From Microbacterium foliorum (GTDB lineage: Bacteria > Actinomycetota > Actinomycetes > Actinomycetales > Microbacteriaceae), in contig NZ_CP041040.1 in NCBI RefSeq assembly GCF_006385575.1, positions 186,001 to 250,000 on the forward strand: a stretch of DNA of 64,000 nt. The letters are read 5' to 3'. The position numbers were made by a program, and so were the translations under genes. Under the pieces are notes generated by a model. The model was not told where the DNA came from, did not search any database, and saw nothing but the letters and a program-made list of their open reading frames with translations. Shown here in pieces: positions 3,839 to 34,612 of this stretch. Positions within the stretch are counted from its first letter, which is position 1. Each line of letters starts with the position of its first letter.

Positions 3839-5023
3839 ATGACCGATGACCGCGCGCGCACTGACCCGCATCCGTTCGACTCCCGCACGAGGTTCGACCT
3901 CGATCGGCCCGAGAGCCGCAAGTGGAGCCTGCACCCCGGGCGCATCGGCGCGTGGGTCGCCGAGATGGACTTCGGCGTCGCGCCCGTGATCGCCGATGCA
4001 ATGCACCGAGCGATCGACGAGGAGAACCTCGGATACCTGTCGCCACCGCTCGCCGCCCGGCTCGGTGAGGCCACCGCCGAGTGGATGCAGGGCGAGTACG
4101 GCTGGGCGATCGATCCCGAGCGCGTGCATCCGGTGTCCGATGTGATGGCCGCGCTGCGGGTGGCGGTCGAGGAATATGCGCCCCCCGGGTCGCCCGTCAT
4201 CGTGCCGACGCCCGCATATATGCCGTTTTTGACATATCTGCCCGCGATCGGACATCCGGTGATCGAGATCCCCGGTGTCGAGGTCGACGGGCGCTGGCAT
4301 CACGACCTGCAGCGCATCGATGAGGCGTTCGCCGCAGGTGCTCGCACGCTCGTGCTCTGCAACCCGCACAATCCGACCGGCACGGTGGTCGAGCGCGCTG
4401 AGCTGGAGGCGCTCGCGGAGATCGTGGGGCGCCACGGCGGCCGGGTGTTCGCGGATGAGATCCATGCGCCGCTGCGCTTCGACGGCCGACCGTTCATCCC
4501 CTATGCATCCGTGTCGGAGGCGACGGCCGCGCACACCATCACCGGCACGAGCGCGTCGAAGGCGTGGAACATCCCCGGACTGAAAACCGCTCAGCTGATC
4601 ACCTCGAATGACGCCGACCAGCAGCTGTACCGCCGGTTCGGGTTCTCGGTGCAGCACGGCGCCGCGACGCTCGGCGTGGTCGCGTCGACTGCGGCGTATC
4701 GCGAGGGCAAGCCGTGGCTCGACGGAGTGATCGACTACCTCTACGAGTCGCGACACCTTGTGGGATCCCTTGTCGCCGAACACCTTCCCGGCGCGATCTA
4801 TCGCCAACCGGACGCGACCTACATCGGCTGGATCGACACGAGCGAGCTGGGCATCGAGGGTGCGCCTGCAGCGTTCTTCCGCGACCGTGCCGGAGTCGTG
4901 CTGACGGAGGGCGCGCTGCTCGGACGAGGGTACGAGGATTTCGTGCGGGTCGTGTTCGCGACTCCGCGGCCGATCCTGCGCGAGGCGTTCGCCGCGATGG
5001 GGGATGCCGTTCGGGCACGCTGA
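3839..5023 (+). CDS. PatB/MalY-type PLP aminotransferase (C-S lyase-like), copy 1
   Basis: 394 residues of fold-type I PLP enzyme. It opens with the MalY/PatB hallmarks RKWSLHPGRIGAWVAEMDF and has TPAYMPFL, CNPHNPTGTV, FADEIHAP and the PLP-lysine motif TSASKAWNIPGLK. Family members cleave cystathionine or other cysteine conjugates to a thiol, pyruvate and ammonia; some act as aminotransferases. Full length for the family. A paralogue lies at 6129-7298 in the opposite direction, and the two genes converge on a toxin-antitoxin pair. Confidence 0.88.
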   Translation: MTDDRARTDPHPFDSRTRFDLDRPESRKWSLHPGRIGAWVAEMDFGVAPVIADAMHRAIDEENLGYLSPPLAARLGEATAEWMQGEYGWAIDPERVHPVSDVMAALRVAVEEYAPPGSPVIVPTPAYMPFLTYLPAIGHPVIEIPGVEVDGRWHHDLQRIDEAFAAGARTLVLCNPHNPTGTVVERAELEALAEIVGRHGGRVFADEIHAPLRFDGRPFIPYASVSEATAAHTITGTSASKAWNIPGLKTAQLITSNDADQQLYRRFGFSVQHGAATLGVVASTAAYREGKPWLDGVIDYLYESRHLVGSLVAEHLPGAIYRQPDATYIGWIDTSELGIEGAPAAFFRDRAGVVLTEGALLGRGYEDFVRVVFATPRPILREAFAAMGDAVRAR

Positions 5024-5130
5024 CGCGAGCATCCGCTCGGTGGCGCAGTGCCGATCGCGCCGGTTCCCGGGATCGATCGCGTTCAGCGGATCGATCGCGC
5101 CCCGAGCGTCGTTGCGCCTCGCGGGCGCCG

Positions 5131-5241
5131 GATGCGGGGTCGAAAACGCATCTCCCGCCGGATGCGGGGTCAAAAACGCATCCCTAGTGGGCCTTTGCGG
5201 TGCGAAACTGACCCCGCACCGCCGGGGGGTCGAGAACGCAC
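5131..5241. repeat. Interspersed palindromic repeat, family 1, copy B (compound)
   Basis: Two direct half-units GATGCGGGGTCRAAAACGCA (5131 and 5161), one inverted half (GCGAAACTGACCCCGCACC, ending 5220) and a further direct half (GGGGTCGAGAACGCACC, 5226-5241). The clustering suggests repeated insertion or local duplication of the half-unit. Confidence 0.75.
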
Positions 5242-5271
5242 CGCGCCACACAACCTGTCTGGGCAGTACAG

Positions 5272-5652
5272 CTAGACCCGCGGCCCGGCGTCGAGTCCGA
5301 ATCGCTCCGCTGCTGCCGCGAACTCCAGGTCGAAGGTGAGGATGCTCTCGATCGCATCGCCGATCTCGAGCGCGGTGGCCAGGTGCAGCGCATCCAAAGT
5401 GCGTAATCCGCTGTGCAGCTCGACGGCCCGCGCGAGCGTGTCATCGCTGAGTGAGACGAAAGCCACGCGATCGAGCAACTCCTGCGCGGCATCCGTGCTG
5501 ATCGCGCGCCGGTCCGCGACGGCATGCAGTTCGACCGCCAGCAGTCGGGAGGAGACGAAGGCCGTGCCGTCGGCGAATGCCCGGCGCATCGCTGCACTGC
5601 CGTCCTCGTCGATGAGTGCCTTGGCCGCTGCAGAGGTGTCGAGGTAGATCAC
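5272..5652 (-). CDS. vapC: PIN-domain ribonuclease toxin (VapC-like)
   Basis: 126 residues. PIN-fold acidic residues are visible in MIYLDTSAAAK (D5), LRTLDALHLATAL and ILTFDLEFAAAA. VapC toxins are Mg-dependent RNases that cut tRNA or rRNA unless bound by the antitoxin. Its start overlaps the antitoxin stop by four bases, the normal antitoxin-first order. Length is typical. Confidence 0.88.
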   Translation of the reverse strand: MIYLDTSAAAKALIDEDGSAAMRRAFADGTAFVSSRLLAVELHAVADRRAISTDAAQELLDRVAFVSLSDDTLARAVELHSGLRTLDALHLATALEIGDAIESILTFDLEFAAAAERFGLDAGPRV

Positions 5653-5912
5653 AGCCGGTCGGACCGAAGGTCGTCGAGGATGTCTCGGGTCGAGCGTTCA
5701 CTCGTGGCGGCGGGTGTGGGGAGCGCCCCGGACTTCGATGGCATCGTCACGCGGCCCGACGACACGAGTCGCTCCCAGGCGGTCTGTGCAGGGGGAGCCA
5801 GCTCAGCGATCGGGCGCCCGCGGTCGGTGATGATCAGCCGCTCCCCGGCAGCCACTCGCGCCAGCACCTTCGCGGTCTGCTGATTGAGTTCCGTCTTCGT
5901 CACCCTGGCCAT
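5649..5912 (-). CDS. Phd/YefM-type antitoxin
   Basis: 87 residues. VTKTELNQQTAKVLARVAAG followed by ERLIITDRGRPIAELAP is the Phd/YefM DNA-binding core; the C-terminal STRDILDDLRSDRL is the toxin-binding tail seen on antitoxins partnered with PIN toxins. It is the first gene of the pair and is likely autoregulatory through the inverted repeat just upstream (5931-5952). Confidence 0.9.
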   Translation of the reverse strand: MARVTKTELNQQTAKVLARVAAGERLIITDRGRPIAELAPPAQTAWERLVSSGRVTMPSKSGALPTPAATSERSTRDILDDLRSDRL

Positions 5913-5930
5913 ACCCCCGATTCTACGCTC

Positions 5931-5952
5931 GATCTAGTAGAAGTAGTAGATC
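5931..5952. promoter_or_regulatory. Candidate operator of the toxin-antitoxin operon
   Basis: GATCTA-N10-TAGATC, a perfect dyad 18 bases upstream of the antitoxin ATG, with an internal GTAGAAGTAGTAG stretch. Position and symmetry fit an autorepression site. Confidence 0.45.
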
Positions 5953-6045
5953 GCGTCTCTTGCTCGCTCTCCCTCATCCTGCGCGGGGGTTCGGACATTC
6001 CGCCCTGGTCATATGCGGGTCAATGACCAACGTGCAGGCCTCATC

Positions 6046-6103
6046 ATGCGGGGTCGATTTCGCATCCGAAACGGCCGGTTCCGATGCGAAATTGACCCCG
6101 CAT
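6046..6103. repeat. Interspersed palindromic repeat, family 1, copy C (best-formed)
   Basis: 58 bp. Outer arms ATGCGGGGTC/GACCCCGCAT, inner arms CGCATC/GATGCG, centre CGAAACGGCCGGTTCC. It is nearly symmetric throughout and is the clearest copy in the window. It lies between the divergent antitoxin promoter and the end of the second PatB-like gene. Confidence 0.85.
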
Positions 6104-6128
6104 CGGCTAGGAGCGAGACGAGACGCGG

Positions 6129-7298
6129 TCAGGCGGTGCGGTCGCGCAGCGCGGCGGTGATGCGGTCGACCGCCTCGGCCATGACCGGGCGGGGCAGGGC
6201 GAAGACGAAGCGCGTGTATCCGATCGCGGCCTCGCCACAGGCGGCACCATCCGTCATCGCGACCCCGGCGTGCTCGCGGAACCACTCCCCGAGATCCCCG
6301 GTCAACCCCGTCTCGCGGAAGTCGAGCAGCGCGATGTAACTGCCCTCGGGCACGATCATCCGCACGCCGGGCAGCTTCTCGTCGACGAGCTGCGCCAGCA
6401 TCCGTCGGTTGCCGTCGAGGTACTCGACCACCCCATCGAGCCACTCGCGCCCGCCGGTGTAGGCCGCGATGTTCGCGACGACGCCGAGCGTCGAGGTGCC
6501 GTGTCCTGCCCAGAATCCGAGGCTCTCCCAGAGCGCGGCGTCGGCGTCGTTCGAGAGGATGACCTGCGCGCACTTCAGGCCGGCGAGGTTCCACGCCTTC
6601 GACGCAGACGTCGCGGTGAGCGTGTGGGTTGCTGCGGCATCCGATATTGAGGCGTAGGGGATGTGCTGAGCCGGCGCGTAGACGATGGGCGCGTGGATCT
6701 CGTCGGAGAACACCCGCCCGCCCGCATCCGTCACGACCGAGGCGATCGCGAGCAGCTCGTCACGGGTCGCGACGGTGCCTAGGGGGTTGTGCGGGTTGCA
6801 GAGCACCAGCATCTCGCCGCCGTCGCGGAACGCCTGGGCGACGGCATTCAGGTCCATGACCCAGCGTCCGTCGACCTCGACGCTGGGCACCTCGATCACC
6901 CGGCGGCCGCGCATCGGCGGCACCAGGAGGAACGGCATGTATGCGGGCGTCGGCACGATGATCGCCGAGCCGGGAGTCGTGAAGTGGTCGATCGCCAGTT
7001 CGAATGCGGCGATCACATCGGGCACATGGTGCACCCGCTCGGGCGAGATCTCCCACCCGTACGAGTCGGAATACCAGCGGGCCGTCGCCTGCGAGAGATC
7101 CTTCGCGAGCTTCTCGGGCAGGTATCCGGTGACGCCCAGGTCCAACGCATCCTTCACGGCGGTGCTGACGGCAGGGGCGAGTCCGAAGTCCATCTCGGCC
7201 ACGAACGCGCCGATCATGTCGGGGAAGGTCGTCCATTTGAGGCTGCCCGCCGCGCGCAGGTCGTCTTGAGTGATCTGGTCGAACGTGCCCGTGGTCAT
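6129..7298 (-). CDS. PatB/MalY-type PLP aminotransferase (C-S lyase-like), copy 2
   Basis: 389 residues, the same architecture as the gene at 3839: LKWTTFPDMIGAFVAEMDFG, TPAYMPFLL, CNPHNPLGTV, FSDEIHAPI and the PLP-lysine motif TSASKAWNLAGLK. The two proteins align end to end by eye but differ at many positions, so this is an old paralogue pair. Likely a pyridoxal-phosphate beta-lyase; the substrate is not determined. Confidence 0.88.
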   Translation of the reverse strand: MTTGTFDQITQDDLRAAGSLKWTTFPDMIGAFVAEMDFGLAPAVSTAVKDALDLGVTGYLPEKLAKDLSQATARWYSDSYGWEISPERVHHVPDVIAAFELAIDHFTTPGSAIIVPTPAYMPFLLVPPMRGRRVIEVPSVEVDGRWVMDLNAVAQAFRDGGEMLVLCNPHNPLGTVATRDELLAIASVVTDAGGRVFSDEIHAPIVYAPAQHIPYASISDAAATHTLTATSASKAWNLAGLKCAQVILSNDADAALWESLGFWAGHGTSTLGVVANIAAYTGGREWLDGVVEYLDGNRRMLAQLVDEKLPGVRMIVPEGSYIALLDFRETGLTGDLGEWFREHAGVAMTDGAACGEAAIGYTRFVFALPRPVMAEAVDRITAALRDRTA

Positions 7299-7485
7299 AC
7301 TTCAATCCTTCCATCCATGGGGAGCCCTCGGTCCGGATGCGGAAGGTCTGAGCTGTGCACTCGTCGACACCTGCATGTCCGGATCACACATGATGCCGAG
7401 AACGACGGGTTCGGCCTGTATCCGTGATGTGAGCCTGCATCTGTGAGGGCCGCCCGAGCGCGGCCCCGCACCGAGGGCGTGCCGC

Positions 7486-7543
7486 GTGCGGGGTCACTTC
7501 CGCACCGGAAACCGAGGCCAGCGATGCGTTTTTGACCCCGCAC
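7486..7543. repeat. Interspersed palindromic repeat, family 1, copy D
   Basis: GTGCGGGGTCA at 7486-7496 faces TGACCCCGCAC at 7533-7543. The centre is less conserved than in copy C. The 7299-7641 gap between divergent genes contains this element and no gene I can support. Confidence 0.75.
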
Positions 7544-7641
7544 CGAGAGCGCTCGCCCGAGCCACACCATTGAGCCACCCCCGCACCCGTGCCAGGATTG
7601 CCCCGACTCGGCTCACCGGGGGCGGGGACGAAGGGATTCTC

Positions 7642-8703
7642 ATGCAGCTGGCGATGATCGGACTCGGCCGGATGGGTGCAAACATCGTGCGCCGCCTCAT
7701 GCGCGACGGGCACGAGTGCGTGGTCTATGACGTGAATGCCGATGCGGTGCAGGCGCTGGTCGCCGAGGGAGCCACGGGCGCAGACAGCATGGCCGACCTG
7801 GCGTCGAAGCTCGAAGCGCCGCGGGCCGTGTGGATGATGGTGCCCGCCTCGCTCACGGGCATGGTGGCCGATCAGGCGGCGGAGGTGCTCGATGAGGGCG
7901 ACATCCTGATCGACGGCGGTAACTCGAACTACCGTGACGACGTGCGCCGGGCGAAGACCTTCCGTGAGCGCGGCATCCACTATGTCGATGTGGGCACGAG
8001 CGGTGGCGTCTTCGGGCTCGACCGCGGCTACTGCCTGATGGTCGGCGGCCCGGACGAGGCCGTGCAGCGCATCGAGCCCGTGCTGCGCACGATCGCCCCG
8101 GGCGTCGGCGAGATCGAGCGCACCCCCGGTCGCACGGGAGACCTCACCCCCGAGGAGCAGGGCTACCTGCACTGCGGACCGTCGGGCGCGGGGCACTTCG
8201 TGAAGATGGTGCACAACGGCATCGAGTACGGCATCATGGCGTCGATCGCCGAGGGCCTCAATCTGCTGCACAACGCGGATGCCGGAGTGCGCGAGGCCGA
8301 ACACTCCGCCGAGATCGCCCCGCTGGAGGAGCCGGAGTTCTACCAGTTCCCGATCGACACGTCGAAGGTCGCGGAGCTGTGGCGCCGAGGATCCGTCATC
8401 TCGTCGTGGCTGCTCGACCTCACGGCCGCCGCGCTCTCCGAGAACCCGACGCTCGACGGTCTCGCCGGCCGGGTGTCCGACTCGGGCGAGGGGCGCTGGA
8501 CGGTCAAGGCCGCGGTCGACGTGGGGGTGCCCGTGCCGGTGCTCGCGGCGTCGCTGTTCGAGCGCTTCGCCTCGCGCGGTGAGGATCAATTCGCCAACCA
8601 GGTGCTGTCGGCCATGCGTCTGCAGTTCGGCGGACACCAGGAGCTCCCCGCCGGAGACGTGCTCGAGGCCGGCTCGCGCAAGGCCGACTCCGACAGCGCA
8701 TAA
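7642..8703 (+). CDS. gnd: 6-phosphogluconate dehydrogenase, decarboxylating (short GntZ/YqeC-type)
   Basis: 353 residues from ATG 7642; the open frame extends upstream but the protein proper starts at MQLAMIGLGRMGANIVRRL, the NAD(P)-binding GxGxxG motif. Further signatures are DGGNSNYRDD, DVGTSGGVFGL (substrate loop), HCGPSGAGHFVKMVHNGIEYG with the catalytic lysine, and a C-terminal helical domain. It converts 6-phosphogluconate to ribulose 5-phosphate, CO2 and NAD(P)H. The roughly 330-residue short form is often NAD-preferring and linked to gluconate use. Confidence 0.92.
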   Translation: MQLAMIGLGRMGANIVRRLMRDGHECVVYDVNADAVQALVAEGATGADSMADLASKLEAPRAVWMMVPASLTGMVADQAAEVLDEGDILIDGGNSNYRDDVRRAKTFRERGIHYVDVGTSGGVFGLDRGYCLMVGGPDEAVQRIEPVLRTIAPGVGEIERTPGRTGDLTPEEQGYLHCGPSGAGHFVKMVHNGIEYGIMASIAEGLNLLHNADAGVREAEHSAEIAPLEEPEFYQFPIDTSKVAELWRRGSVISSWLLDLTAAALSENPTLDGLAGRVSDSGEGRWTVKAAVDVGVPVPVLAASLFERFASRGEDQFANQVLSAMRLQFGGHQELPAGDVLEAGSRKADSDSA

Positions 8704-12849: not shown

Positions 12850-13022
12850 ACGAGGCTTAGCGCGGCAATTTCTGCGAGCGATTCTCGAGTCGGCCGGGAA
12901 GCTTGAGTGTCGGAGATAGCGTGTCTGCCAGTCATGGAGACAAACCTATGGATGAGAACTGCAGCGTGCGGGAGGACACCGATACTCTGGGTTCACCGCC
13001 TGCATCGAAGGAGATCGGCGAG

Positions 13023-13583
13023 ATGAGACCCCTGCGCTACTCGATCAACGTCACGCTCGACGGCTGCGTCCATCATGAGGCGGGGGTCGCTCCCGATGGG
13101 GAGCTGATGCAGTTCTGGACCACCGAGATGCAGCGGGCGGATGCCGTGCTCTATGGCCGAACGACCTACGAGATGATGCAGTCGGCCTGGCGTCGCCCGG
13201 CATCCGGTGTGTGGCCCGACTGGATGGATGAGTGGGAGGTCCCGTTCGCGGAAGCTCTCGACAGTATGCCGAAGTTCGTCGTGTCGCGCACGATGGATGC
13301 CGTCGATTGGAACGCCGAGCTGGTGAGGGGCGACCTGGCCCAGACGGTTCAGCAGCTCAAGCAGCCGCCTGGCGAAGGACTGTCCGTCGGTGGCGTGACT
13401 CTTCCCCTTGCGCTCACCGAGCTGGGGCTGATCGACGAGTACACGTTTGTCGTGCACCCGATCATCGCCGGCCACGGGCCGCGGCTGCTCGACGGGTTGA
13501 GCGAGCGCACCCGGCTCGAGCTCATCAACCGCCGCGAGTTCGCGTCGGGAGCGGTGGCGACGGCGTATCGGCCGGTGACCTGA
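13023..13583 (+). CDS. Dihydrofolate reductase-like (RibD C-terminal domain) protein
   Basis: 186 residues from ATG 13023, preceded by GAAGGAGATCGGCGAG. MRPLRYSINVTLDGCVHH opens the DHFR/RibD_C fold; DAVLYGRTTYEMM, KFVVSRTMDAVDWNAEL and LSVGGVTLPLAL are the NADPH-binding strands, and PIIAGHGPRLLDGL is the usual C-terminal motif. Family members reduce pterin- or pyrimidine-like substrates with NADPH; this one is unassigned. A decayed direct copy lies at 17038-17407, on the far side of the Ubl/E1 operon. Confidence 0.88.
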   Translation: MRPLRYSINVTLDGCVHHEAGVAPDGELMQFWTTEMQRADAVLYGRTTYEMMQSAWRRPASGVWPDWMDEWEVPFAEALDSMPKFVVSRTMDAVDWNAELVRGDLAQTVQQLKQPPGEGLSVGGVTLPLALTELGLIDEYTFVVHPIIAGHGPRLLDGLSERTRLELINRREFASGAVATAYRPVT

Positions 13584-13902: not shown

Positions 13903-13931
13903 TTGTGTCCCCATATGTATGCTTTTATATC
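13903..13931 (+). promoter_or_regulatory. Candidate sigma-70-type promoter of the Ubl/E1 operon
   Basis: TTGTGT (13903-13908), a 17-bp spacer, then TATATC (13926-13931), inside an AT-rich patch and about 105 bases upstream of the Ubl ATG. The match is 3/6 and 4/6 to consensus, but the spacing is optimal and no better pair is visible nearby. Confidence 0.45.
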
Positions 13932-14037
13932 TCAAATGGACGATTTCGATGGTGAAGAAGACGTATTTGACGCCATTCGAACACCGGCGCCGCATCAGTG
14001 CCGGTGCGCCCGTCCATCCGACGAAAGGAACATCACT

Positions 14038-14307
14038 ATGCAGATCGAATTGCGCGGTGTCGCCGAAGCGTGCCTCGACCGCAGCACGCTCGAGATCGAA
14101 CGATCGATGCCGCTTTCTGTGGAAGACATCTTCCGCGAGCTCGGCGACCTGGACGAGCGGATCGAACGGGCGTTCATCGACGCGGAGACCCAGCAGGTGC
14201 GCAGCTATGCGCGCATTCTCGTCGACGGCAAGGTCGCTCGTCTCGAGGATCAGGTCGACGACGACTCGCGCGTCATGGTGTGCGTCGTCGCTCCGTGTGA
14301 CGGCTGA
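14038..14307 (+). CDS. Ubiquitin-like MoaD/ThiS-fold protein ending in Cys-Asp-Gly
   Basis: 89 residues, ATG preceded by GAAAGGA. The C-terminal half (ARILVDGKVARLEDQ, then DDSRVMVCVVAPCDG) follows the beta-grasp sulfur-carrier pattern, in which an 'LVNGxxxxxLxxxLxDGDxVxxxPxxxGG' end is adenylated by an E1-like enzyme. Here the tail is C87-D88-G89 instead of Gly-Gly; the last residue is still Gly. The N-terminal half contains one helix (LSVEDIFRELGDLDERIERAF). First gene of a four-gene operon; its partner is the E1-like protein at 14402. It could carry sulfur as a thiocarboxylate or be conjugated to something. A distant possibility is a modified peptide precursor. Confidence 0.72.
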   Translation: MQIELRGVAEACLDRSTLEIERSMPLSVEDIFRELGDLDERIERAFIDAETQQVRSYARILVDGKVARLEDQVDDDSRVMVCVVAPCDG

Positions 14308-14401
14308 TCAGACGTCTCCCTCGGTGCGGTGGTCGAGCTCACTGCTCGGCCACCGCCCTCGTCCAGCCCGCCGCCGCACCTCTCAGCGCGAAAGAAAGAG
14401 C

Positions 14402-15133
14402 ATGGAGTTTCAGGACACGAGATACAACCGACAGCTGTTGATGCCGCAGATCGGGGAGGCCGGCCAGCGGCGCCTCTCTGAGGCCAGCGTGGTCACCGTG
14501 GGAGCCGGCGGCGTGAAGTCTCCTCTGCTTTACTACCTCGCCGCGGCAGGTGTCGGACGCATTCACATCATCGACTTCGATGACATCGAACTCAGCAACC
14601 TCAACCGCCAGATCCTTTACCGGACACACGACATCGGCAGGCTGAAGGCAGAGACGGCAGCCGAGGAACTGCGAGAGCTGAACCCGTCCATCGACATCTC
14701 GTACTCCACCGACAGAGTCACGCCGGAGAACATCGACGAGATCCTCGGCGGCTATTCCGTCATTCTGGAAGGCGGGGATGGACCCGAGCAGCGCCTCCTG
14801 TGCAATGCGTTCGCCCTGCGCACGCGCACCCCCATGGTTCACGTCAGTGCCCAGTACGGATACGGGTACGTGTTCACGATGGTGAACGAAGAAGACCCCT
14901 GTCTCCAGTGTGTGTACCCCGATCTGCCCGAGAGTCGCAGAGGACCGGTTCCCGTATGGGGCATATCCACGGGTCTCTCCGGAGTCCTGGGTGCCAATGA
15001 GGTGCTCAAGACCATCCTCGACAAGGGCGATCTCGCTCGTGGATATCTCCTGTCGTTCTCGAACTTCCAGAACGACTTCATTCGAATCCCCATCGAGAAG
15101 CGGGACGAGTGCGCGGCATGCGGCCGCAGATGA
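14402..15133 (+). CDS. E1-like ThiF/MoeB/HesA adenylyltransferase
   Basis: 243 residues, the usual MoeB/ThiF length, with GAAAGAAAGAG upstream. The nucleotide loop VGAGGVKSP (33-41), acidic end of strand 2 (IDFDDIELSNLNRQ) with R69, K82 in GRLKAETA and D126 in EGGDGPEQ match the ATP-binding and adenylation residues of MoeB. Two CxxC pairs (C167/C170 and C237/C240) form the structural zinc site. The loop that holds the ThiF thioester cysteine has none (LPESRRGPVP), so it probably works like MoeB: adenylate the Ubl C-terminal glycine and hand it on. There is no MccB-type peptide-clamp domain. Its stop overlaps the MFS start (ATGA). Confidence 0.9.
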   Translation: MEFQDTRYNRQLLMPQIGEAGQRRLSEASVVTVGAGGVKSPLLYYLAAAGVGRIHIIDFDDIELSNLNRQILYRTHDIGRLKAETAAEELRELNPSIDISYSTDRVTPENIDEILGGYSVILEGGDGPEQRLLCNAFALRTRTPMVHVSAQYGYGYVFTMVNEEDPCLQCVYPDLPESRRGPVPVWGISTGLSGVLGANEVLKTILDKGDLARGYLLSFSNFQNDFIRIPIEKRDECAACGRR

Positions 15134-16341
15134 GCGACACCGCGAGTGCGGTTCGACGCGCCGCTCTCTTCGGCTCCGCCATGGATGCGGTGGGAACAGG
15201 CGCATTCGTCAGCGCGGCGGCGATCTTCTTCGCGACCCAGAGCGGTGTCAGCCCCGTGACCGTGGGAATCGGGCTTACCATCTCGGCGGTGAGCGGCGCG
15301 GCGGCTTCGGTTCCCGTGGCCCACATCGCCGATCGTCTCGGACCGCTGCGCGTGTTCACCCTCTCCTATGCGCTGCGTGCCATCGGCATGCTCGGGTGGC
15401 TCTTCGTCGGTGGTGACGTCGCCTTCCTCGTCTACTCGGCAGTCTTCGGCGCCGTAGACCGCTCGGCGGCGTCGCTCACCCGCAGCATCATCGCTGCTCC
15501 CCTCCCGGAGGACGAGGCCGTGCGCCTCTTCGGTCGCATGGCCCTCCCCACCAACCTCGGCTACGGACTCGGCGCCGGCCTCGCCGGGCTCGTGATGTTC
15601 TTCGACTGGCCGCTCACCGTCGTCCTGATCGTCAATTCGGCATCATTCGTCGCGGTCATCATCATCTACCGGTCAGCTCTGCACGGCCGAGATGTCTCAG
15701 ATGCGCGCGTGCGGCCCTCCGCATTGACGTCGTGGACCTCATTCACGACCGCTTTCGGATCGCCACAGCGACTCAACATCACCTGGGAGAACTTCGTGTT
15801 CTCGTTCCACCGAACACTCCTCAATGTGTACCTGCCCCTCTTGGTGGTCACTCATTGGGAAGATTTCGCCTGGATCGTCCCCGCCGCATTCGTCGTCAAC
15901 GCCGCGGTCGTCGCATTCACCCAAGAGAAGGTGAACATCTGGGCGACTGCCGGCGCTCACCATGCCATCGCCTGGGCCGCTTCCGGGATCATCCTCGGAG
16001 TATCCGTCCTGCTGCTGTCGACGACGGTGCCCACCTCGGAGAACACGAGGGGAGTGATCGCGCTGGTGGTGCTCATCCTGCTGCAGATCCTCGCCGAGAT
16101 CCTGCACTCCGCTGCCCTCGCGGTCTACATGGTCAAGCTCAGCAGGCGTGACGCGCGGACCACCGACATGAGCGCGATGAACCTCGGCGGACAACTGCAG
16201 AACGTCGTCGGGCCCTCCGTCTTCGGCGCCATTGTGAGTCCGCACGCATGGGTTCTCGGCGTCGCCGTCGGCGGCTGCATCATCATCACCGGACTGCGTG
16301 CATCCGCAGTCGGCCGCCGAAGGTGGTTCGCCGATGACTGA
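15130..16341 (+). CDS. MFS transporter, probable exporter of the Ubl/E1 product
   Basis: 403 residues from the ATG overlapping the E1 stop; upstream in-frame ATGs at 15109 and 15118 lie inside the E1 gene. Twelve hydrophobic segments are likely; the first is AALFGSAMDAVGTGAFVSAA. The loop VAHIADRLGPLRVFTLSYAL after TM2 is the MFS motif A region (xADRLGxxR). It resembles H+-driven drug/efflux MFS proteins. Position between a tailoring enzyme pair and a methyltransferase suggests export of a small product and self-protection. It overlaps the methyltransferase by eight bases. Confidence 0.85.
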   Translation: MSDTASAVRRAALFGSAMDAVGTGAFVSAAAIFFATQSGVSPVTVGIGLTISAVSGAAASVPVAHIADRLGPLRVFTLSYALRAIGMLGWLFVGGDVAFLVYSAVFGAVDRSAASLTRSIIAAPLPEDEAVRLFGRMALPTNLGYGLGAGLAGLVMFFDWPLTVVLIVNSASFVAVIIIYRSALHGRDVSDARVRPSALTSWTSFTTAFGSPQRLNITWENFVFSFHRTLLNVYLPLLVVTHWEDFAWIVPAAFVVNAAVVAFTQEKVNIWATAGAHHAIAWAASGIILGVSVLLLSTTVPTSENTRGVIALVVLILLQILAEILHSAALAVYMVKLSRRDARTTDMSAMNLGGQLQNVVGPSVFGAIVSPHAWVLGVAVGGCIIITGLRASAVGRRRWFADD

Positions 16342-16999
16342 CTCCGACGCCGGAGAGCGTTGGGATTGGGAGTACAGCATCCGCAACAGCGGTCGGAGGG
16401 ACCCTCTACCCATCGTCGACGCCGTGATCGAGATCGCTCAGCCCGAGCAGCGTCTCCTCTACATCGGGATCGGCGACGGGCGGAACTTCCTCCCCCTCAT
16501 CGACGCCGGTCTCGACATCGTCGGATGCGAGATCTCGAGGGTCGGCATCGATCGGCTTCTGGAAGAACGGCCGGACGTTGCGAACCGCGCTTTCTTCGGG
16601 AGCTTTGACGACGTCTTCGGCGGGGCTGACTTCTTCGACGGGGTCGTGGTCTCGCGCGTCCTTGTCGACAGCGACCTCAGCGTCACCGAGGCTCGGCTGC
16701 GAAGCGCTCGACGACTGCTGCGCCCCGGGGGCTTCATCGCTGCCCAGTGGACTGCCGCCGGCACCGATCCCTGGCCCGGATGGACCCGAGCCGACCTCGA
16801 CGAGAAGGCGAACCTGCACCTCACATACGAAGACGACGGGGTGCGCAAGGTCTACCTCTCGTTCAGAGGATGCGTGGAACTTCTCGAGGGTGCAGACTGT
16901 GCGGTCGAGAGTGGCCTCACGGCCGTCGACCTACCGCGCGTCGCGGCGCCCGGAGGAATCGTTCGAGACTGGATCACCATCGCCAGCCCCACGGGGTGA
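16334..16999 (+). CDS. Class I SAM-dependent methyltransferase
   Basis: 221 residues from ATG 16334 inside the MFS stop region. Motif I is LLYIGIGDGRNFLPL (41-55), the acidic strand-2 end is VGCEISRVGIDRL, and the post-motif segments FDGVVVSRVLVDSD and RRLLRPGGFIAAQWT are typical of small-molecule methyltransferases. The acceptor is unknown. As last gene of the operon it probably methylates the molecule made with the Ubl/E1 pair, or blocks a reactive group before export. Confidence 0.85.
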   Translation: MTDSDAGERWDWEYSIRNSGRRDPLPIVDAVIEIAQPEQRLLYIGIGDGRNFLPLIDAGLDIVGCEISRVGIDRLLEERPDVANRAFFGSFDDVFGGADFFDGVVVSRVLVDSDLSVTEARLRSARRLLRPGGFIAAQWTAAGTDPWPGWTRADLDEKANLHLTYEDDGVRKVYLSFRGCVELLEGADCAVESGLTAVDLPRVAAPGGIVRDWITIASPTG

Positions 17000-17037
17000 G
17001 GGGCCACCCAGAGCCCGCGTCGAAGGAGATCGGCGAG

Positions 17038-17407
17038 ATGAGACCACTGCGCTACTCAATCAACGTCACGCTCGACGGCTGCGTCCATCACGAGGCGGGG
17101 GTCGCTCCCGATGAGGAGCTGATGAGCTTCTGGACTGCCGAGATGGAGCGGGTGGATGCCGTGATCTACGGCCGAACGACCTTCGAGATGATGCAGGAGG
17201 CCTGGCGTCGCCCGGCATCCGGCGCGTGGCCCGACTGGGATGGGAGAGTAAGAGATCCCGTTCGCAGAGGCCATCGACCGCATGCCGAAGCACGGGCCGC
17301 GGCTGCTCGACGGGTTGAGCGAGCGCACCCGGCTCGAGCTCATCAACCGCCGCGAGTTCGCGTCGGGAGCGGTGGCGAACACCTATCGGTCGGTGCGCTC
17401 GGCTTGA
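17038..17407 (+). pseudogene. Decayed direct copy of the RibD/DHFR-like gene at 13023
   Basis: From the ribosome site (17020) on, the sequence is nearly identical to 13005 onward: MRPLRYSINVTLDGCVHH and YGRTTFEMMQEAWRRPASG are kept. After PDW a net one-base change shifts the frame. The sequence then jumps from ATGCCGAAG directly to CACGGGCC, losing the equivalent of 13275-13472 (198 bp, in frame). The final 40 codons survive. The stop region overlaps the end of the opposite membrane gene by 25 bases. Confidence 0.88.
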
Positions 17408-21371: not shown

Positions 21372-23084
21372 ATGGCGACCAAGACTGCACGAATCAAGGC
21401 CGGCTTCACACTGGGAGGCGAGCAGGCAGAGGCAGACCCGCTCGCCGGTGAAGCGTTCGTAGAATCGGGACTGTATGAGGTGATCGCCGATCGCCGCGAC
21501 CCTCGGTGTTTTCTGATCGGCCGAACCGGGTCCGGCAAGTCCGCGGCGCTTCAGCACCTCGAAGACACTGAGCCGGACCATGTGATTCGGATCACGCCTG
21601 AAGACTTATCCCTGCCTTACATCACTGATCTTCAGGTGATTCGGTACATGGACTCGCTCGACGTGAAGCTTGATCTCTTCTGGATCGCGCTGTGGAAGCA
21701 CGTACTTCTCGTCGAAATCATCCGCCACCGATACGGTGTCACCTCGCCCGAGACAAAGCAGCGATTTCTCGTGGGACTGAAGGAACGACTGGTTAGGCAG
21801 CCCGGGAAGCAAGCCGCACTCGACTATCTTGACGAGTTTGAAGGAAAGTTCTGGTGTGACGCCGATGAGAGAGTTCGTGAGATAACCGACAGGTTCACGG
21901 AACGGTTGGGCGTCGATGGGAGCGTCTCCGCTTCAGTGGCGTCCTTCGGTGTGAAGGGCGCCGTCTCTTCTGCCACCGAACAGACAACTGAATCCAAGTC
22001 GGAGATGGCCGACCGCTACCAGCGCATTGTTAACGAAACGCAGTTGTCAAAACTGAATCAGATGCTCACGGTCCTCAACGACGAGATTCTGGATGAAGCG
22101 AACTTTACGTATGTTGTGATAGACGATCTCGACAGAGACTGGGTGGATGAACGACTGTCGAATGACCTCATTCGTTGTCTATTCCGAACGGTGCTCGACA
22201 TGCAACGCGTCGCGAACTTGAAGATCGTCGTCGCCCTGCGATCCAACATTTTTCAAGAGCTGGATTTTGCTGCTAGCGGTGGGCAAGAAGAGAAGTTCCG
22301 AGCTCTGGTGCTTGAGATGAGGTGGACTAAGCCATTGCTCGAGGAAGTTCTTGATGAACGCGTCAAGCTTGCGGCTGAATCGTCGAATCTCACTGCCAAG
22401 TCATTTCGTGACCTCACGCCCCATTCCAATAACACGCGCGGGAATCCCATCCAGTACATCCTGCAGCGCACTTTGCTTCGGCCCCGCGACGCGATCGCCT
22501 TCGCCAACCAGTGCTTCGCTGTAGCAGCGGGGAAGCACCGGCTGAGTTGGGAAGACATCCAAGCGGCTGAGCGGCAGTACTCCGCCAATCGGTTGCTCGC
22601 ACTCCGCGACGAATGGAAGCAAACTTACCCAGGAATCGACCAAGTTGTCGTCAAGTTTCGCGGCGCACCGGCACGAATGACCAGAGACGAGTTTCAGGAT
22701 CGCCTCGATGAGTGCATGCTGCTTATGACTGCTCCAGAGTTCACGGGTGTGAGGTGGATGACGGATCTGTCACGCGCAATGTGGGAATCTAGCGCTGGCG
22801 AAGCTTCCTGGAATGAGCTTTACCAACCGCTGCTGGCGTTACTTTACCGAATTGGACTTGTGGGTTGTGCGCTTACAGGAAGCGCCGCACCGCTGTTCTT
22901 CGCCGACGACGCTCTTCTCGTGGAGTCTGAGTCAACCGTGGACCGTTGCGAGTGGTTTCACGTGCACAGGATGTTCCATAAAGCGCTCGACGTTGTTCGT
23001 ACGGGCGAGCGGAGGGAGCAACAGGCGTCATCTGCGCCGAGCCAGAGTGCCAAAGCCGAAGATGTTTCGCAATCAGTGAGTTGA
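21372..23084 (+). CDS. P-loop ATPase, Sll1717-like family
   Basis: 570 residues. Walker A is GRTGSGKSA (50-58); a Walker B/KAP-like VVIDDLDRDW lies near 250, followed by a sensor-type helix LKIVVALRSNIF and a helical C-terminal half. KAP and Sll1717-type ATPases are STAND-related NTPases often found alone or with partners in defence islands. No effector or membrane helix is visible in the protein itself. Visibly less GC-rich than flanking core genes and preceded by a long non-coding stretch, so probably acquired. A defence role is inferred from context. Confidence 0.75.
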   Translation: MATKTARIKAGFTLGGEQAEADPLAGEAFVESGLYEVIADRRDPRCFLIGRTGSGKSAALQHLEDTEPDHVIRITPEDLSLPYITDLQVIRYMDSLDVKLDLFWIALWKHVLLVEIIRHRYGVTSPETKQRFLVGLKERLVRQPGKQAALDYLDEFEGKFWCDADERVREITDRFTERLGVDGSVSASVASFGVKGAVSSATEQTTESKSEMADRYQRIVNETQLSKLNQMLTVLNDEILDEANFTYVVIDDLDRDWVDERLSNDLIRCLFRTVLDMQRVANLKIVVALRSNIFQELDFAASGGQEEKFRALVLEMRWTKPLLEEVLDERVKLAAESSNLTAKSFRDLTPHSNNTRGNPIQYILQRTLLRPRDAIAFANQCFAVAAGKHRLSWEDIQAAERQYSANRLLALRDEWKQTYPGIDQVVVKFRGAPARMTRDEFQDRLDECMLLMTAPEFTGVRWMTDLSRAMWESSAGEASWNELYQPLLALLYRIGLVGCALTGSAAPLFFADDALLVESESTVDRCEWFHVHRMFHKALDVVRTGERREQQASSAPSQSAKAEDVSQSVS

Positions 23085-25737: not shown

Positions 25738-25997
25738 TCACGAACCACCGACATCGAGATCGTTCCTTGATGCAGGCAATGCGACCGCCAGTCCTAGCAC
25801 CGCGGCCACCTTCGCTAAAGGCGCCGTCGATACGTCGTCGCCGCGCTCAATTCGCGCGACCGTGGGTCGAGAGGCGTCCGCACGCTTGGCAAGCTCGCGT
25901 TGGATCCAGGGGCACGCGATGCGCGAATCGCGATTTTGACCGCAATCTCCGGCATCGTCGCGCCGGACGTCTGATCGCGGTTCTCGGTCGTCGTCAC
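25738..25997 (-). pseudogene. XRE-family HTH regulator, frameshifted
   Basis: A GTG at 25997 overlaps the stop of the methylase half (GTGA) and reads MTTTENRDQTSGATMPEIAV then KIAIRASRAPG. Near 25905 the frame must shift by one base to continue QRELAKRADASRPTVARIER and GDDVSTAPLAKVAAVLGLA, a textbook XRE helix-turn-helix. The gene ends at 25738. A one-base error or mutation is the simplest reading. If intact it would be a small repressor translated with the restriction genes. Confidence 0.65.
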
Positions 25998-27031
25998 ACC
26001 ATGGGCTTGACGTGTGACTCGATGAAGGCGATTTCGTTGGGGTCGAGCTTGTGCCTCGCGTAAAGCTGTTGGTCAATCTCGGGGATCGATCTCGACCAGT
26101 CGATCTCCGACCCGGTCGTGAAGTCTTGAGCCGGCACATACTCCCAGACGCGCGCAAGATTGTCCTGCGTGACTTTCAACACGCCAAGCAAGGTGCGCGC
26201 GAACTTGGACTTCACGTACTTGAGGCACGCCTCCGCCTGGGCCTGAGTATCGAAGGCGCCGATGGTGATGAACGTGCCTGTCACTGCCGTCGCGGGCTCC
26301 AACGCGATCGGGGGAGCAAGCGTCTCGCCGAATGCTCCAGACCCGTTTGCCTTTGGCAGCGCGACTTTGTGCTTGAAAAGCGCAACGGGGCCCGTGATGT
26401 AGTCGCTACGGATCCAGCGATACGAGCGCTTCCTGCCATCGAGCCCAAGAACGCGCATGTATTCGGCGCCATCAGTGGGCCTCTCTTCAAAGAAGACCGC
26501 AGCGAGACGCTCGAACGCTCGCGAGTCCAACTTGAACTGATTCCCGCCCGACATCAGCGCTCGCAGTTGAGGATGCTCGTTGTGCATGGTTTGCGTGTAG
26601 CGGTAGACGCGATCATTTGAGATTCCGAGAGACACCAGCGACGAGCTGTGCTGTTCAGTGAGCTTGTGGATGATCGAGTTCAGCTCGGGGTACTTGGTGA
26701 AGATTCCGATCGGCTCGCCGGTACGCGTGGTGTCGCGATACGTGACCACGACACCACCCTTGATGTCAGTTCCGGGAAAGAGGGAAGCACTGTCGGGCAC
26801 GTAATGGGGAACCGTGAGATGCGGATCTTCTAGCATCTTTGCATTCCAGGCCTTCGGCGTGTACCCGGCGTTGAACAGGAACCGGGCGGGAGTGATAAGT
26901 ACCGCCTTCTCGCCTACTTCGTAGGCCGCCTCCATGAAGCGGTGGTAGATAGGCATCTGGTTGGTTGCGTCGCCCTGAGCTTCCTCTTGGTAGGGAGGGT
27001 TGCCGATGACGACGTCGAACTTCTTGCTCAT
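25994..27031 (-). CDS. Adenine DNA methylase half with NPPY catalytic motif (Eco57I/type ISP-like)
   Basis: 345 residues. It opens directly at MSKKFDVVIGNPPYQEE (NPPY at 11-14), the motif IV of N6-adenine methyltransferases, with no upstream SAM-binding motif I. The rest (VLITPARFLFNAGYTPKAW, SASLFPGTDIKGGVVVTYRD, then ANGSGAFGETLAPP and DTQAQAEACLKYVKSKFART) looks like the C-terminal part of Eco57I-type enzymes, including target recognition. It starts two bases after the helicase stop with AAGGAAAC as ribosome site. The helicase's C-terminus ends with what should directly precede this motif. It appears to be one half of a split methylase. Confidence 0.85.
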   Translation of the reverse strand: MSKKFDVVIGNPPYQEEAQGDATNQMPIYHRFMEAAYEVGEKAVLITPARFLFNAGYTPKAWNAKMLEDPHLTVPHYVPDSASLFPGTDIKGGVVVTYRDTTRTGEPIGIFTKYPELNSIIHKLTEQHSSSLVSLGISNDRVYRYTQTMHNEHPQLRALMSGGNQFKLDSRAFERLAAVFFEERPTDGAEYMRVLGLDGRKRSYRWIRSDYITGPVALFKHKVALPKANGSGAFGETLAPPIALEPATAVTGTFITIGAFDTQAQAEACLKYVKSKFARTLLGVLKVTQDNLARVWEYVPAQDFTTGSEIDWSRSIPEIDQQLYARHKLDPNEIAFIESHVKPMV

Positions 27032-27033
27032 GA

Positions 27034-30000
27034 TCAGTTTCCTTCCGTCAACATCTCGTCGACGATCTGCTCGCGCTCCTGGGCACTCATCCTGGTGATG
27101 TCACCGAACCTGAAGTGTCCGGATTCCTGAAGCCATTCGCGACGCTCTGACACGCCGCCCGAGACCGACTCGATCGTGATCTTGTGCAGCAGCTCGTTGT
27201 GGCTCATCTCGAAGATCTGCTTCGTGAGAATGTGGCGCAGGCGTTCTTCGCGGTCGGGGATTTTGTCCGCAAGACCCGCATCGAGGCGTCGCACTAGCTC
27301 CATCAGGAACAGGCCGGCGGTCGAGAAGAGGTCAGCGAATGTCTTCGACTCGTCCGAGAAGATGCCAGGGTTATCCGACTCCAGCGCATCGACCATCGTC
27401 TCGACAACCACGCGGGGGGTGAAGACCAGCGACGTCTTCTGGTGCGGGATATACGCGAAGATGTCCTCAGTCTGCGACTCGTCGAAGTAATCAGCGAGCG
27501 CCTCTTTCTTGTCGAGGAACTCCTGCACGGCCTTGTCGAAGACTGCCTCATCGAACATCCCCGGGATCGAAACAACAGTGCCATCCTCCTCGGTGACGTC
27601 CTGCCCATCGCGCAACACGCGGAAGTCAGCCTCAGTGATGCCGGTGATCTCCTCGAAGACGTGGTCAGGTGTGTAGTCATCGAAGTTCGCCAGACGAAGA
27701 TCTCGGTCCCCGTACGCCATGAGGAACATCGGGATCGTGCGTGAGAACCCGCGCAGGTGCGAGCGCGCGTCATCCATCGTCTGGTTCGCGCGCTTCTGTT
27801 CCTTCTTCGTCTCTTCACGGCTCACGACGTCGTGAGTGATCGCGTCGGTGCGCGCATTCACCAGCGCGAGGATGTCGGCGTTGAACGACTCATCGTGCGC
27901 AACCTTGTCCTGCACGATGGCCGCAGCGTCCGCTTCAGTGGCGGCATCCTCCAACGCATCCTCGAATCGCTTCTCAGCGATGCTTCGCTCCGTGAGAACG
28001 CGCTCGACGTCAGCCATCACACGGGCCTCGGTCTGCTTCTCATCCCGCTCGACCTGCTTGGCTGAGAGTCCGTACTCCTGGGCGAGCTTGTCACGAATCT
28101 CGCGGACCTTATCGTTCACCAGCTTCGCGACCTGTCGAGCGGTGGCCAGCGGCGACCCCTCGCGATCAACCGGCGCGATGTCCTCGATGCGCCAGACGGG
28201 CTTGCCGAGCTCCGCAACCTTGGGATTGATGACGGTCTCGACGTCGACCTGGACGTTGCCGTCCGGGTCAAAGGAAGGGGCCGGCTCCGGGAGGCCGATA
28301 GTGCCACCCGACTTCGTCTTGCCCTGCTTCGCCTCCGGCAGCTTCTCCAGGATTTCCTTGACGTGCTCCGAGTACCGGAAGATTCCCGCCACGTTGGCGA
28401 ACAGAAGGTTCGAGAGGAATCCACGGCGAACGACTTCACGAGCTTTGTAGACCTGCGGGAAGGTCAATACCTGTGCGGCATCGAGCTCAACCATTCGGCC
28501 CTCGGAATCTTCACCGATGACGGGGAAGAAGTTCAGGAGCTCACGAATGTTCTCCTGTCGTACGCTCTGGTCGCCCGACGGGGTCGAGCTGAGGTTGTTG
28601 GCGAACGCGTCGAAGATCGTGAGCGTGCGCTCGGGAGCGAAGTCGAAGATGTACGCATTCTTCTTCTGGAACACCGTGCCGGCGCGCTCGAACGTGCACG
28701 GGTTCTGCGCACGGAACGCCGCCTGCATGTAGAGCGCCGGCGACGAGAGATTCGACAGCATGATGACTGCAGTCCATTCGGGTACAGTGACGCCCGTCGT
28801 GAGCTGCCCAACCGACAGTGTGATCGTCCTGCCGCCGACGTTCTCGGCTGCGTCGATCGCGCCGCGCACGGTGTCCAACGACTTCCCGACAACAGCCAGA
28901 TCGGCATCGTCGTTGCGCCCATCACCAGCAGCGAGGACGACCTCGTAGTCCTTAAACACGGGATGGTTCTTCAGGAGACGCCGGAGCGCCTTCGCAGAGG
29001 CCACCCGGTTCAGCAGCCAGAACGAGTGACGGATTTCATCGCGCAGCTCGGGAGTCGAGAACGGGTACTTCTCGTTCGTCGCGAGACAATCGAGGAACTT
29101 TATGACCTCCGCCTCGTGCTCGAAGAAGCCGCTGTCCTTCGTGCTGAAGAACTCGTTCAGATCGAACGTGTAGTCGATGTTCGCGCCATCCTCGTCGCTG
29201 GCAACACCGACGGCAAGTTGATCCGTGATCATCCGCGAGATCTGGTATGTGAGCATGTTGAGGCGTGGGAGAGCGCCGTACGGATTCTCTACGGCATCGT
29301 CGTCCCAGTTCTCGCGAGCCATCTGCTCGTCCTCATACGTCCAGTTGAAGATCTGCTCGTTACCGAACCGCCCAGAGCTCAACGCTTTGAACGGGGTGCC
29401 AGAAAGGTGCAGCGTCCACGCGCGAGTGATCTGGTCGAACGCGACATCGGTCTTTGTCGTATCGACACCCTCATGGGCCTCGTCGATGACCAACAGGTCC
29501 CACTCAAAGTCAGCGATGTGCCGAAGCTTCCTGTGAACCCCGCCAAAGTACTGCGAGCCCTTGAGGTCCTGGAGGGAGACGAATTCGACGATCCTAGGGT
29601 CTTCGCTCGCGTCATCTGCAAGGTGCTTCACCCACTGATCGCGCGTCATCGCAGAGCGTGAGGCGAGCGACGGCGACTCAGACACGAACTTATACGTCGT
29701 CTGGTGCCCGATGAAGCGGGAGAAGTCGTCGAACCACGAGTTGGCGATCGCGGGCCGGTTTGTGACGATGAGCACCTTCCTTGCGCCGATCTTCCGCATC
29801 AGATCATAGGTCGTGAGCGTCTTTCCGAACCGCGGCTTGGCGTTCCACAGGACTTCATTGCCGCCCTCGTTGAACACCGAGAGCGCTTGCTCGACCGCAG
29901 CGCGCTGTTCGGGGCGCAACTCATAGTCGTCCTCGCCCACCATCTGGAAGTCAGAGAAATCCTGGCCTGCGAACGAGTTGAAGTAGTCGAGAGAAGACTT

Positions 30001-30318: not shown

Positions 30319-31009
30319 CGGCTCTCACTTCCTTGTGAACTTGGTCGATTCGGCACTGCTGGTAGGTCGCGTAGACCGTGAAGTCGAAAGCGCCGACACC
30401 TGCTCCACGAAGCGAGGCAAGAGTGAACGGATCGCGCTGCACGAGGCCGGGCACGTTGAGTACCCGGTGCCACCATGAGAACTCAATCGGCTCGCCGTTG
30501 GCATCGAGGCCTGTGAGCGTGTCTCCCAGCGCAACGTTCGCACCGATGAGGTACACCGCTGAGCGGTACATGTTCGTGCGGGAGCTGCAGACCACGCCAT
30601 GGGCTGCATGGAACGCAGCGAACTCAGCGAGCAGTCCAGCGCGTGCCGCGATCAGATTGTCTTCCAGCAGCTCAACACCGTAGATCGACGCGAGCGCGAA
30701 GAGCGACTCGGTCGGCCAGAACTCCGGCTGATAGCGCTTCTCGATGGCGTGAAGCTTGCGCCGCAGAATCGCGATCAAGAAGTTGCCGTCTCCAGCGCTC
30801 GGCTCAAAGAAGGTCTTGTCGACGAACCCCGGCCCGGTCTCCAGCTCAGCACACACCAGATCGAGCATCTGCTCCACCATGCGGCGAGGAGTAAATACCT
30901 CGCCGTGAGCTTTCACTCGTTCGCGTGACTTGATGAGCTCTTCGCTCAGTTCATCACGCGAGGCCACGGTAAAAGCTTGACCGTCTGGCCTGAGGGGTGC
31001 GGCGGTCAT
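30311..31009 (-). CDS. Adenine methylase-like subunit with intact SAM motif and degenerate motif IV
   Basis: 232 residues. HGEVFTPRRMVEQMLDLV (35-52) is motif X, KTFFEPSAGDGNFLIAIL (65-82) is a good SAM-binding motif I, and IYGVELLEDNLIAARAGLL is motif II. At the place of NPPY stands FDFTVYATYQQCRIDQVHKE (208 onward), i.e. YATY (213-216), which should not support adenine methylation. This pattern is the mirror image of the other two methylase pieces. Its stop overlaps the helicase start by eight bases. It may form a two-subunit enzyme with them, or act as a SAM- or DNA-binding specificity subunit. Confidence 0.82.
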   Translation of the reverse strand: MTAAPLRPDGQAFTVASRDELSEELIKSRERVKAHGEVFTPRRMVEQMLDLVCAELETGPGFVDKTFFEPSAGDGNFLIAILRRKLHAIEKRYQPEFWPTESLFALASIYGVELLEDNLIAARAGLLAEFAAFHAAHGVVCSSRTNMYRSAVYLIGANVALGDTLTGLDANGEPIEFSWWHRVLNVPGLVQRDPFTLASLRGAGVGAFDFTVYATYQQCRIDQVHKEVRADD

Positions 31010-31187
31010 GACTCTCTTCTGGGGTGCAGTGGTGTTGCTTGTATAAACAACTTACGTGATTGCTCTGGTCCGGCGGCGAAGTCGGGACCTCGTGTCACCT
31101 GTACTTCGTTCCGTTTGTGTTCGCGGATGGGGAGGAAAGCTCGATACGCATGTGCTGATCATGGCGCGTCAGTGATTCGTGAAAGGA

Positions 31188-34552: not shown

Positions 34553-34612
34553 CGTGCTCCTCGGATCAACCTGTTGCGAGTCTAAGAGAGTGAAATTCGT
34601 CCGGAAGGATGC

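Follow-up and report, generated by a model that had tools for sequence, protein, structure and literature searches.

A Microbacterium foliorum operon joining a ubiquitin-like protein and an E1-like enzyme to a transporter and a methyltransferase: a possible biosynthesis-and-export cassette

E1-type enzymes are known in two roles, as activators of ubiquitin-like proteins and as builders of peptide antibiotics such as microcin C. Within a 64,000-nucleotide stretch of the Microbacterium foliorum genome (NZ_CP041040.1; 3.62 Mb, a single contig), hereafter the window, four genes form an operon encoding a ubiquitin-like protein (Ubl), an E1-like adenylating enzyme (E1), a major facilitator superfamily (MFS) transporter and a class I S-adenosylmethionine (SAM) methyltransferase (MT). 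The operon is real: the initial annotation of the window had described the four genes in tight order, and that observation is confirmed, with overlaps of 4 bases (ATGA) between the E1 and MFS genes and of 8 bases between the MFS and MT genes. The features of the operon, with coordinates given as positions within the window, are as follows.

13971..14037, + strand: conserved upstream region with a Shine-Dalgarno sequence; no conserved small open reading frame (ORF) seen
14038..14307, + strand: Ubl, a MoaD/ThiS-type beta-grasp protein of 89 residues ending in VVAPCDG (AlphaFold2 model, fold searches and 17-member alignment)
14323..14359, + strand: hairpin in the Ubl-E1 gap, with 15 pairs in its stem if one mismatch is tolerated; candidate attenuator or terminator, with counterparts in loci L016, L001, L017 and L018
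14402..15133, + strand: E1-like adenylating enzyme of 243 residues (PF00899, two CxxC motifs), with neither an N-terminal clamp nor a ThiF-type catalytic cysteine
15130..16341, + strand: MFS transporter of 403 residues (PF07690, 4e-25; five homologues aligned), putatively an exporter
16334..16999, + strand: class I SAM methyltransferase of 221 residues (Pfam; Foldseek on the model)

The operon had initially been drawn from position 13903, a start that includes a non-conserved upstream extension; the Ubl gene itself starts at 14038. The possibilities that the Ubl extends further upstream, or that a small peptide gene is hidden there, were rejected on the frameshifting gaps in the alignment of the two Microbacterium-like upstream regions, and no common small ORF was seen upstream of the Ubl in the lactobacillar loci.

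The AlphaFold2 model of the Ubl has a MoaD/SAMP1-type beta-grasp fold in the fold searches, and this predicted structure bears out the MoaD/ThiS fold first assigned to the protein. Among the fold-search rows listed, the only ones considered, so that a family outside them may still match, the closest solved fold is SAMP1 of Haloferax (12-13% identity). A profile search with the Ubl yielded 15 proteins, none weaker than E 1.5e-23, and the range from there to E 1 was empty. The tripeptide Cys-Asp-Gly (CDG; C87-D88-G89) is terminal in all 17 aligned Ubls, an invariance that could be biased by the profile having been built from seven CDG-ending members. Positions L5, R6, G7, A9, E10, L13, V28, D39, G64, V79 and V84 are also invariant in this 17-row alignment, which omits P0122, a protein identical to the Ubl of the window. 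The lactobacillar Ubls fall to 25-35% identity, yet their CDG tail is unchanged. The Ubl does not have the Gly-Gly tail of ThiS/MoaD-type sulfur carriers, and the canonical MoaD of the host ends in AGG. Pfam ThiS matched 12 of the 17 Ubls at E ≤ 1; that of the window was not among them. Close homologues of both the Ubl and the E1 carry Microbacterium names.

The E1 retains the adenylation residues (R, K and D) and the two CxxC zinc motifs that had been read from its sequence (PF00899; alignment of the window E1 and the host MoeB with 23 of 120 listed matches, 2730 in all). The catalytic cysteine of the ThiF crossover loop, which we take to be Cys184, is absent, with a gap opposite the NC of ThiF in the alignment, and none of the 23 database relatives aligned has a cysteine in this loop. 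The N-terminal clamp of MccB is also absent: matches to MccB begin at its residue 93 (PDB) or 113 (longer annotated coding sequence [CDS]); 101 residues of the two proteins align pairwise at 38% identity. A wider E1 clade among the listed matches (P0016 on), about 44-58% identical to the window E1, includes proteins from Thermomonospora, Nocardiopsis, Parvibaculum, Pseudomonas and others, and the cysteine-less loop is common to those of its members that were aligned. Three other candidate settings for the E1 were rejected. Plasmid relatives (606 of 72,556 records, E ≤ 0.01) are all less than 60% identical to it, and 18 pattern matches in viral_contigs include no relative. As for a defence role, the E1 is matched by E1-E2 models of PADLOC (59 bits at best), which the shared E1 domain would explain, and the Ubl is matched by none.

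The family ties of the Ubl and the E1 argue for the chief alternative that we considered, a sulfur carrier. The Ubl would be adenylated and converted to a C-terminal thiocarboxylate, its sulfur would pass to a host metabolite, and the thio-product would be methylated and exported, in the manner of pyridine-2,6-dithiocarboxylic acid (PDTC), quinolobactin or BE-7585A. The closest folds and families are mostly MoaD, CysO, SAMP1, ThiF and MoeB, the zinc CxxC pairs are retained, and Ubl-E1 operons tied to siderophore-like sulfur chemistry are described in the parts of PMC1779556 covered here. However, an acceptor enzyme, a rhodanese, a desulfurase, SirA and JAB are all missing from the cassette, its Ubls end in CDG rather than GG (17 of 17), its E1 has no ThiF-type cysteine, and two of the carrier genomes described below have Ubl, E1 and MFS only. 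The sulfur transfer initially suggested for the operon is weakened accordingly, and we consider a sulfur carrier rather unlikely.

Searches for the E1 covered 148 relatives (E ≤ 1e-60) and three further sets of genomes, from the phylum, the genus and the Bombilactobacillus family (E ≤ 1e-55). Two of the 148 relatives carry it, as do two of 366 genomes of the same genus (the same two), and among 396 sampled genomes of the phylum it was found only in the host genome itself. Four carriers, Bombilactobacillus included, were found among 397 genomes of the Bombilactobacillus family, the Lactobacillaceae. On these counts the cassette is rare. The order Ubl-E1-MFS is kept in all six genomes with this E1 (two Microbacterium-like and four Lactobacillaceae), and in none of them do the homologues stand alone or beside moaE or thiG, arrangements that the initial annotation had named as evidence against a distinct pathway. 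The MT gene follows the MFS gene in four of the six (the window, G005, Bombilactobacillus L001 and G824) and is absent from G820 and G845; the MT is not universal. A Lacticaseibacillus casei protein is almost the same as the E1 of G824. The E1s of G820 and G845 match a Lactobacillus johnsonii protein, and in both genomes the gene after the MFS gene resembles, by eye, that of a transposase. At L018 and L019 the three-gene version is flanked, downstream of the MFS gene, by such transposase-like genes (by eye), and the MT may have been lost there to an insertion sequence (IS). An initial set comprised nine loci, of which only L001 was studied; the other eight (31-45% identity, several partial) were dropped.

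Amino acid identity between the window and Bombilactobacillus is 68% for the E1, 44% for the MFS transporter, 36% for the MT and 35% for the Ubl, and lactobacillar E1s hold 67-68%. The GC content of the cassette genes is 32-37% in Bombilactobacillus and 61-66% in the window, a difference that speaks for an ancient divergence. The ratio of nonsynonymous to synonymous substitution rates (dN/dS) for the pair of Microbacterium-like copies is 0.23 for the Ubl, 0.06 for the E1, 0.15 for the MFS transporter and 0.19 for the MT. Homologues are named from L. johnsonii, L. casei, L. helveticus and Pediococcus pentosaceus, among others; given these names, an exported product could matter for competition among lactic acid bacteria.

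The usual partners of such proteins are missing from the operon, as had been noted from the outset. Pfam found no MoaE among the cassette genes and no ThiG, E2 or JAB among the four genes and three neighbours, and the starts of the MccB matches place the MccB clamp outside the E1. A separate set of MoaE, MoaD and a MoeB-type E1 lies about 135 kb from the cassette in the host, with MoaC- and MoeA-like genes (by eye) at the same locus (L024). MoaE was found in none of the four lactobacillar genomes, and the two Microbacterium-like genomes have it elsewhere. None of the six carrier genomes has a full-length match to ThiG; the model gave partial matches only (38-91 of 247 positions, 19-36 bits) in four of them, above the cut-off in the two Microbacterium-like genomes, and no match in G820 and G845. 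We tentatively read the partial matches as other triosephosphate isomerase (TIM) barrels.

These results bear on the possibility that the Ubl and E1 are spare molybdenum-cofactor or thiamine genes that neighbour the MFS and MT genes by chance. One source does label a close E1 homologue (P0013) MoeB, and the short ThiG-model matches above the cut-off point the same way. This explanation is nevertheless largely contradicted, and we regard it as extremely improbable: the host has its own cofactor genes elsewhere, the four lactobacillar genomes lack MoaE, none of the six genomes gave a full-length ThiG match, and the gene order is conserved across phyla. Another explanation is protein modification in the SAMP/Urm1 manner, in which the Ubl would be attached to cell proteins independently of an E2 and the MFS and MT genes would be bystanders or regulated neighbours. 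The 4-base overlap of the E1 and MFS genes in the window and the Ubl-E1-MFS order of all six genomes count against it, as does the lack of a deconjugating enzyme in the cassette. To our knowledge, a penultimate Asp is also unusual for Urm1/SAMP-like modifiers, and we consider such modification very unlikely.

A stem-loop lies between the Ubl and E1 genes in all five loci folded (the window, L016, L001, L017 and L018; carrier genome G845 was not among them). By eye, the two Microbacterium-like stems are alike in sequence and unrelated to the three lactobacillar ones. The stems have 15, 18, 20, 19 and 11 pairs in the window, L016, L001, L017 and L018, respectively, lengths reached by 1, 2, 0, 1 and 41 of 400 random windows (same length and same locus, and so possibly overlapping the hairpin itself). 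The corresponding dinucleotide-shuffle z values are −2.17, −3.27, −5.24, −7.49 and −1.98. The L017 hairpin is U-rich in its 3′ arm and tail, and a short U-run is present at L018. The hairpin would likely raise the Ubl transcript over the enzyme transcript. The case for the hairpin lies in its stem length and recurrence and not in the energy of the window copy.

The best Foldseek rows for the MT model, CcbJ and then CypM, are natural-product methyltransferases, and CypM is an enzyme of ribosomally synthesized and post-translationally modified peptide (RiPP) biosynthesis. Several of the best rows are N-methyltransferases, which would suit an amine carrier modelled on LysW: a metabolite would be joined to the C-terminus of the Ubl, methylated while tethered, released and exported. 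Although this scheme accounts for the MT, the MFS transporter and the lack of sulfur genes, the cassette has no release enzyme and two genomes have no MT, and we consider it improbable.

We tentatively propose, at somewhat less than an even chance, that the operon is a self-contained cassette for biosynthesis and export whose Ubl is a precursor that is consumed and not a carrier that is recycled. The three-gene core argues for a precursor because sulfur carriers usually depend on an acceptor enzyme of their own. We further suggest, as a possible but doubtful extension, a new class of ribosomal natural products with a folded Ubl precursor, in which the beta-grasp domain would be a folded leader for the E1 and the invariant CDG tail the core, and a stand-alone, clamp-less E1 would yield a small exported metabolite. 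The logic would be that of microcin C and pantocin A, with a ubiquitin-fold protein replacing the short peptide. The Ubl would be made in excess of the enzymes, as the hairpin suggests. Recognition of the folded beta-grasp domain by the E1 would explain the lack of a leader-binding clamp, and the conserved adenylation residues suggest that the E1 would adenylate the C-terminal Gly89 of the flexible CDG tail. Because the E1 has no catalytic cysteine, a nucleophile may attack the acyl-adenylate (acyl-AMP) directly; candidate nucleophiles are the Cys or Asp of the tail, the phosphate (the route of microcin C) and small amines or thiols. A housekeeping peptidase could then cut off the modified tail or conjugate, and the product would be methylated where the MT is present and exported by the MFS transporter. 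In the two genomes without the MT, the product would have to arise from the Ubl, E1, MFS transporter and host functions.

Several observations weigh against this proposal. The E1 is nearer to ThiF and MoeB than to MccB, the cassette has no protease, an 89-residue folded precursor would be unusual, MFS pumps move small molecules, and an invariant tail is equally expected of a carrier. The likeness of layout to microcin C may be coincidental, and neither the window MFS transporter and MccC nor the MT and MccD have BLASTP similarity (pairwise E of 2.0 and 4.1, respectively). The evidence from the hairpin is uneven. The stem of L018 is unremarkable (41 of 400), and the folding energies are matched by 110, 28, 19, 25 and 7 of 400 random windows in the window, L016, L001, L017 and L018, respectively. 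Comparison stretches from two other parts of the host genome have z values of −1.65 and −1.26, little short of the −2.17 of the window hairpin, so the energy of the window copy alone says little. No T-run follows the hairpin in the window or L016, and termination at the window hairpin is for that reason something we infer. A strict terminator scan of the window, L001, L017 and L018 gave no call for the Ubl-E1 hairpin on the operon strand, and scored that of L017 on the opposite strand only. Even in a microcin C plasmid (L039, below), 87 of 400 random windows equal the 10 pairs of the mccA-mccB stem; stem length thus fails to single out even a known terminator.

Two copies of a RibD_C/dihydrofolate-reductase-like gene (RibD_C), noted at 12998-13577 and 17013-17395, bracket the cassette.

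13023..13583, + strand: intact RibD_C gene, outside the cassette (Pfam)
17013..17395, + strand: degraded second RibD_C copy

The degraded copy has an internal deletion and is 91%, 79% and 95% identical to the intact one over three aligned blocks. Relative G001 has a single full-length RibD_C match, no cassette E1 at E ≤ 1e-60, and the same TetR gene nearby. The bracketing copies and the single RibD_C gene of cassette-free G001 suggest that the cassette may have been inserted with a duplication. Elsewhere in the window, the lower-GC stretch at 25994-35743 is likely a restriction or defence island, with an Eco57I-type methylase, a ResIII helicase that fits a type IIG restriction-modification model, an AAA_5 protein that fits models for type II restriction, and a DUF697/dynamin-like GTPase that matches LeoBC (8e-10). 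At 21372-23084 lies a 570-residue AAA_16 P-loop ATPase with a weak match to PADLOC PDC-M28C (3e-7), possibly a defence ATPase.

Relative to the initial annotation, the tie of the Ubl-E1 pair to an MFS transporter and an MT stands, sulfur transfer is unsupported or weakened, and the MT is not universal. The CDG tail, a layout like that of microcin C and the hairpin that follows the Ubl gene are additions. That annotation knew of no characterised system with these four parts, in agreement with the literature searched: among the matches listed from open-licence PMC papers, at title and abstract level and with subscription papers outside the scope, none describes a Ubl-E1-MFS-MT operon. A ubiquitin-fold substrate in a microcin-type operon, if true, would be an intermediate between the two roles of E1 enzymes and would make the origin of one from the other testable; a folded-Ubl RiPP, if true, would connect activation of the ubiquitin type with antibiotics of the microcin type. 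Mining of genomes for ThiF-type RiPPs from E1s with RiPP recognition element (RRE) motifs, as presented in the parts of PMC12150305 covered here, would probably miss the cassette.

Among known systems, SAMP1 of Haloferax shares the fold of the Ubl and differs in its tail, at the low identity given above, and we know of no exporter linked to it. The MoaD-MoeB, ThiS-ThiF and CysO systems are alike in Ubl fold and E1 adenylation residues, and the cassette differs from them by its CDG tail, the lack of MoaE or ThiG in the operon, the missing ThiF-type cysteine and the link to MFS and MT genes. Ubl-E1-JAB operons (Iyer et al. 2006; PMC1779556, in the parts covered) are sporadic, and one subtype, that of PDTC and quinolobactin, makes secreted sulfur compounds. 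The cassette shares with them the sporadic Ubl-E1 pairing but has no JAB, rhodanese, CaiB or AMP-ligase gene, and a subtype with MFS and MT genes is not described in those parts. The pantocin A cluster PaaP-PaaA-PaaB-PaaC combines a ThiF-like enzyme, a precursor with three critical conserved residues and a small product, and like the cassette it has one tailoring enzyme and one exporter (PMC12250964, in the parts covered). It differs in its 30-residue precursor with an internal core, an oxygenase instead of an MT, an EamA-family exporter instead of an MFS transporter, and an N-terminal extension of PaaA (PDB match from residue 105) that the cassette E1 does not have.

In microcin C, a terminator between mccA and mccB raises the mccA transcript over those of the enzyme genes (PMC6495379), and MccD has a class I methyltransferase fold but catalyses aminocarboxypropyl transfer (PMC12250964), according to the parts of these sources covered. 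On the Escherichia coli plasmid NZ_CP101927.1 (L039), the mccA heptapeptide is encoded at 4642, followed by genes for ThiF (4665-5792), an MFS transporter (5789-7003) and a class I MT (7000-7803) with 4-base overlaps. The mccA-mccB gap folds with z of −3.31 when bounded by an assumed MccB start, the annotated CDS beginning at the last base of the mccA stop codon. Two plasmids of lactobacilli were observed in passing. L. plantarum plasmid LP2025_2 (L041, 1957-4415) has a ThiF-family E1 gene and then an MFS gene between IS elements, possibly a microcin-C-like pair, although this MFS protein is only weakly similar (E 0.004). L. gasseri plasmid pEB01-1 (L040, 1994-7147) encodes a ThiF-family protein, three hypothetical proteins and an ATP-binding cassette (ABC) transporter, possibly a RiPP cluster. 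Direct descent of the cassette from the mcc operon is rejected, as its MFS transporter and MT have no BLASTP similarity to MccC and MccD; the layout is shared, with homology beyond the E1 superfamily undetected by BLASTP. The precursor of microcin C is a 7-residue peptide ending in Asn and that of the cassette would be an 89-residue beta-grasp protein ending in CDG, MccB has an N-terminal peptide clamp and the cassette E1 none, and the gene immediately after the MT in the window is not of the MccE/MccF type. MccB, like the cassette E1, has no ThiF-type cysteine (by eye), and the two systems have in common the order of precursor, hairpin, E1-like adenylyltransferase, MFS transporter and class I SAM-enzyme fold, with short overlaps among the last three genes.

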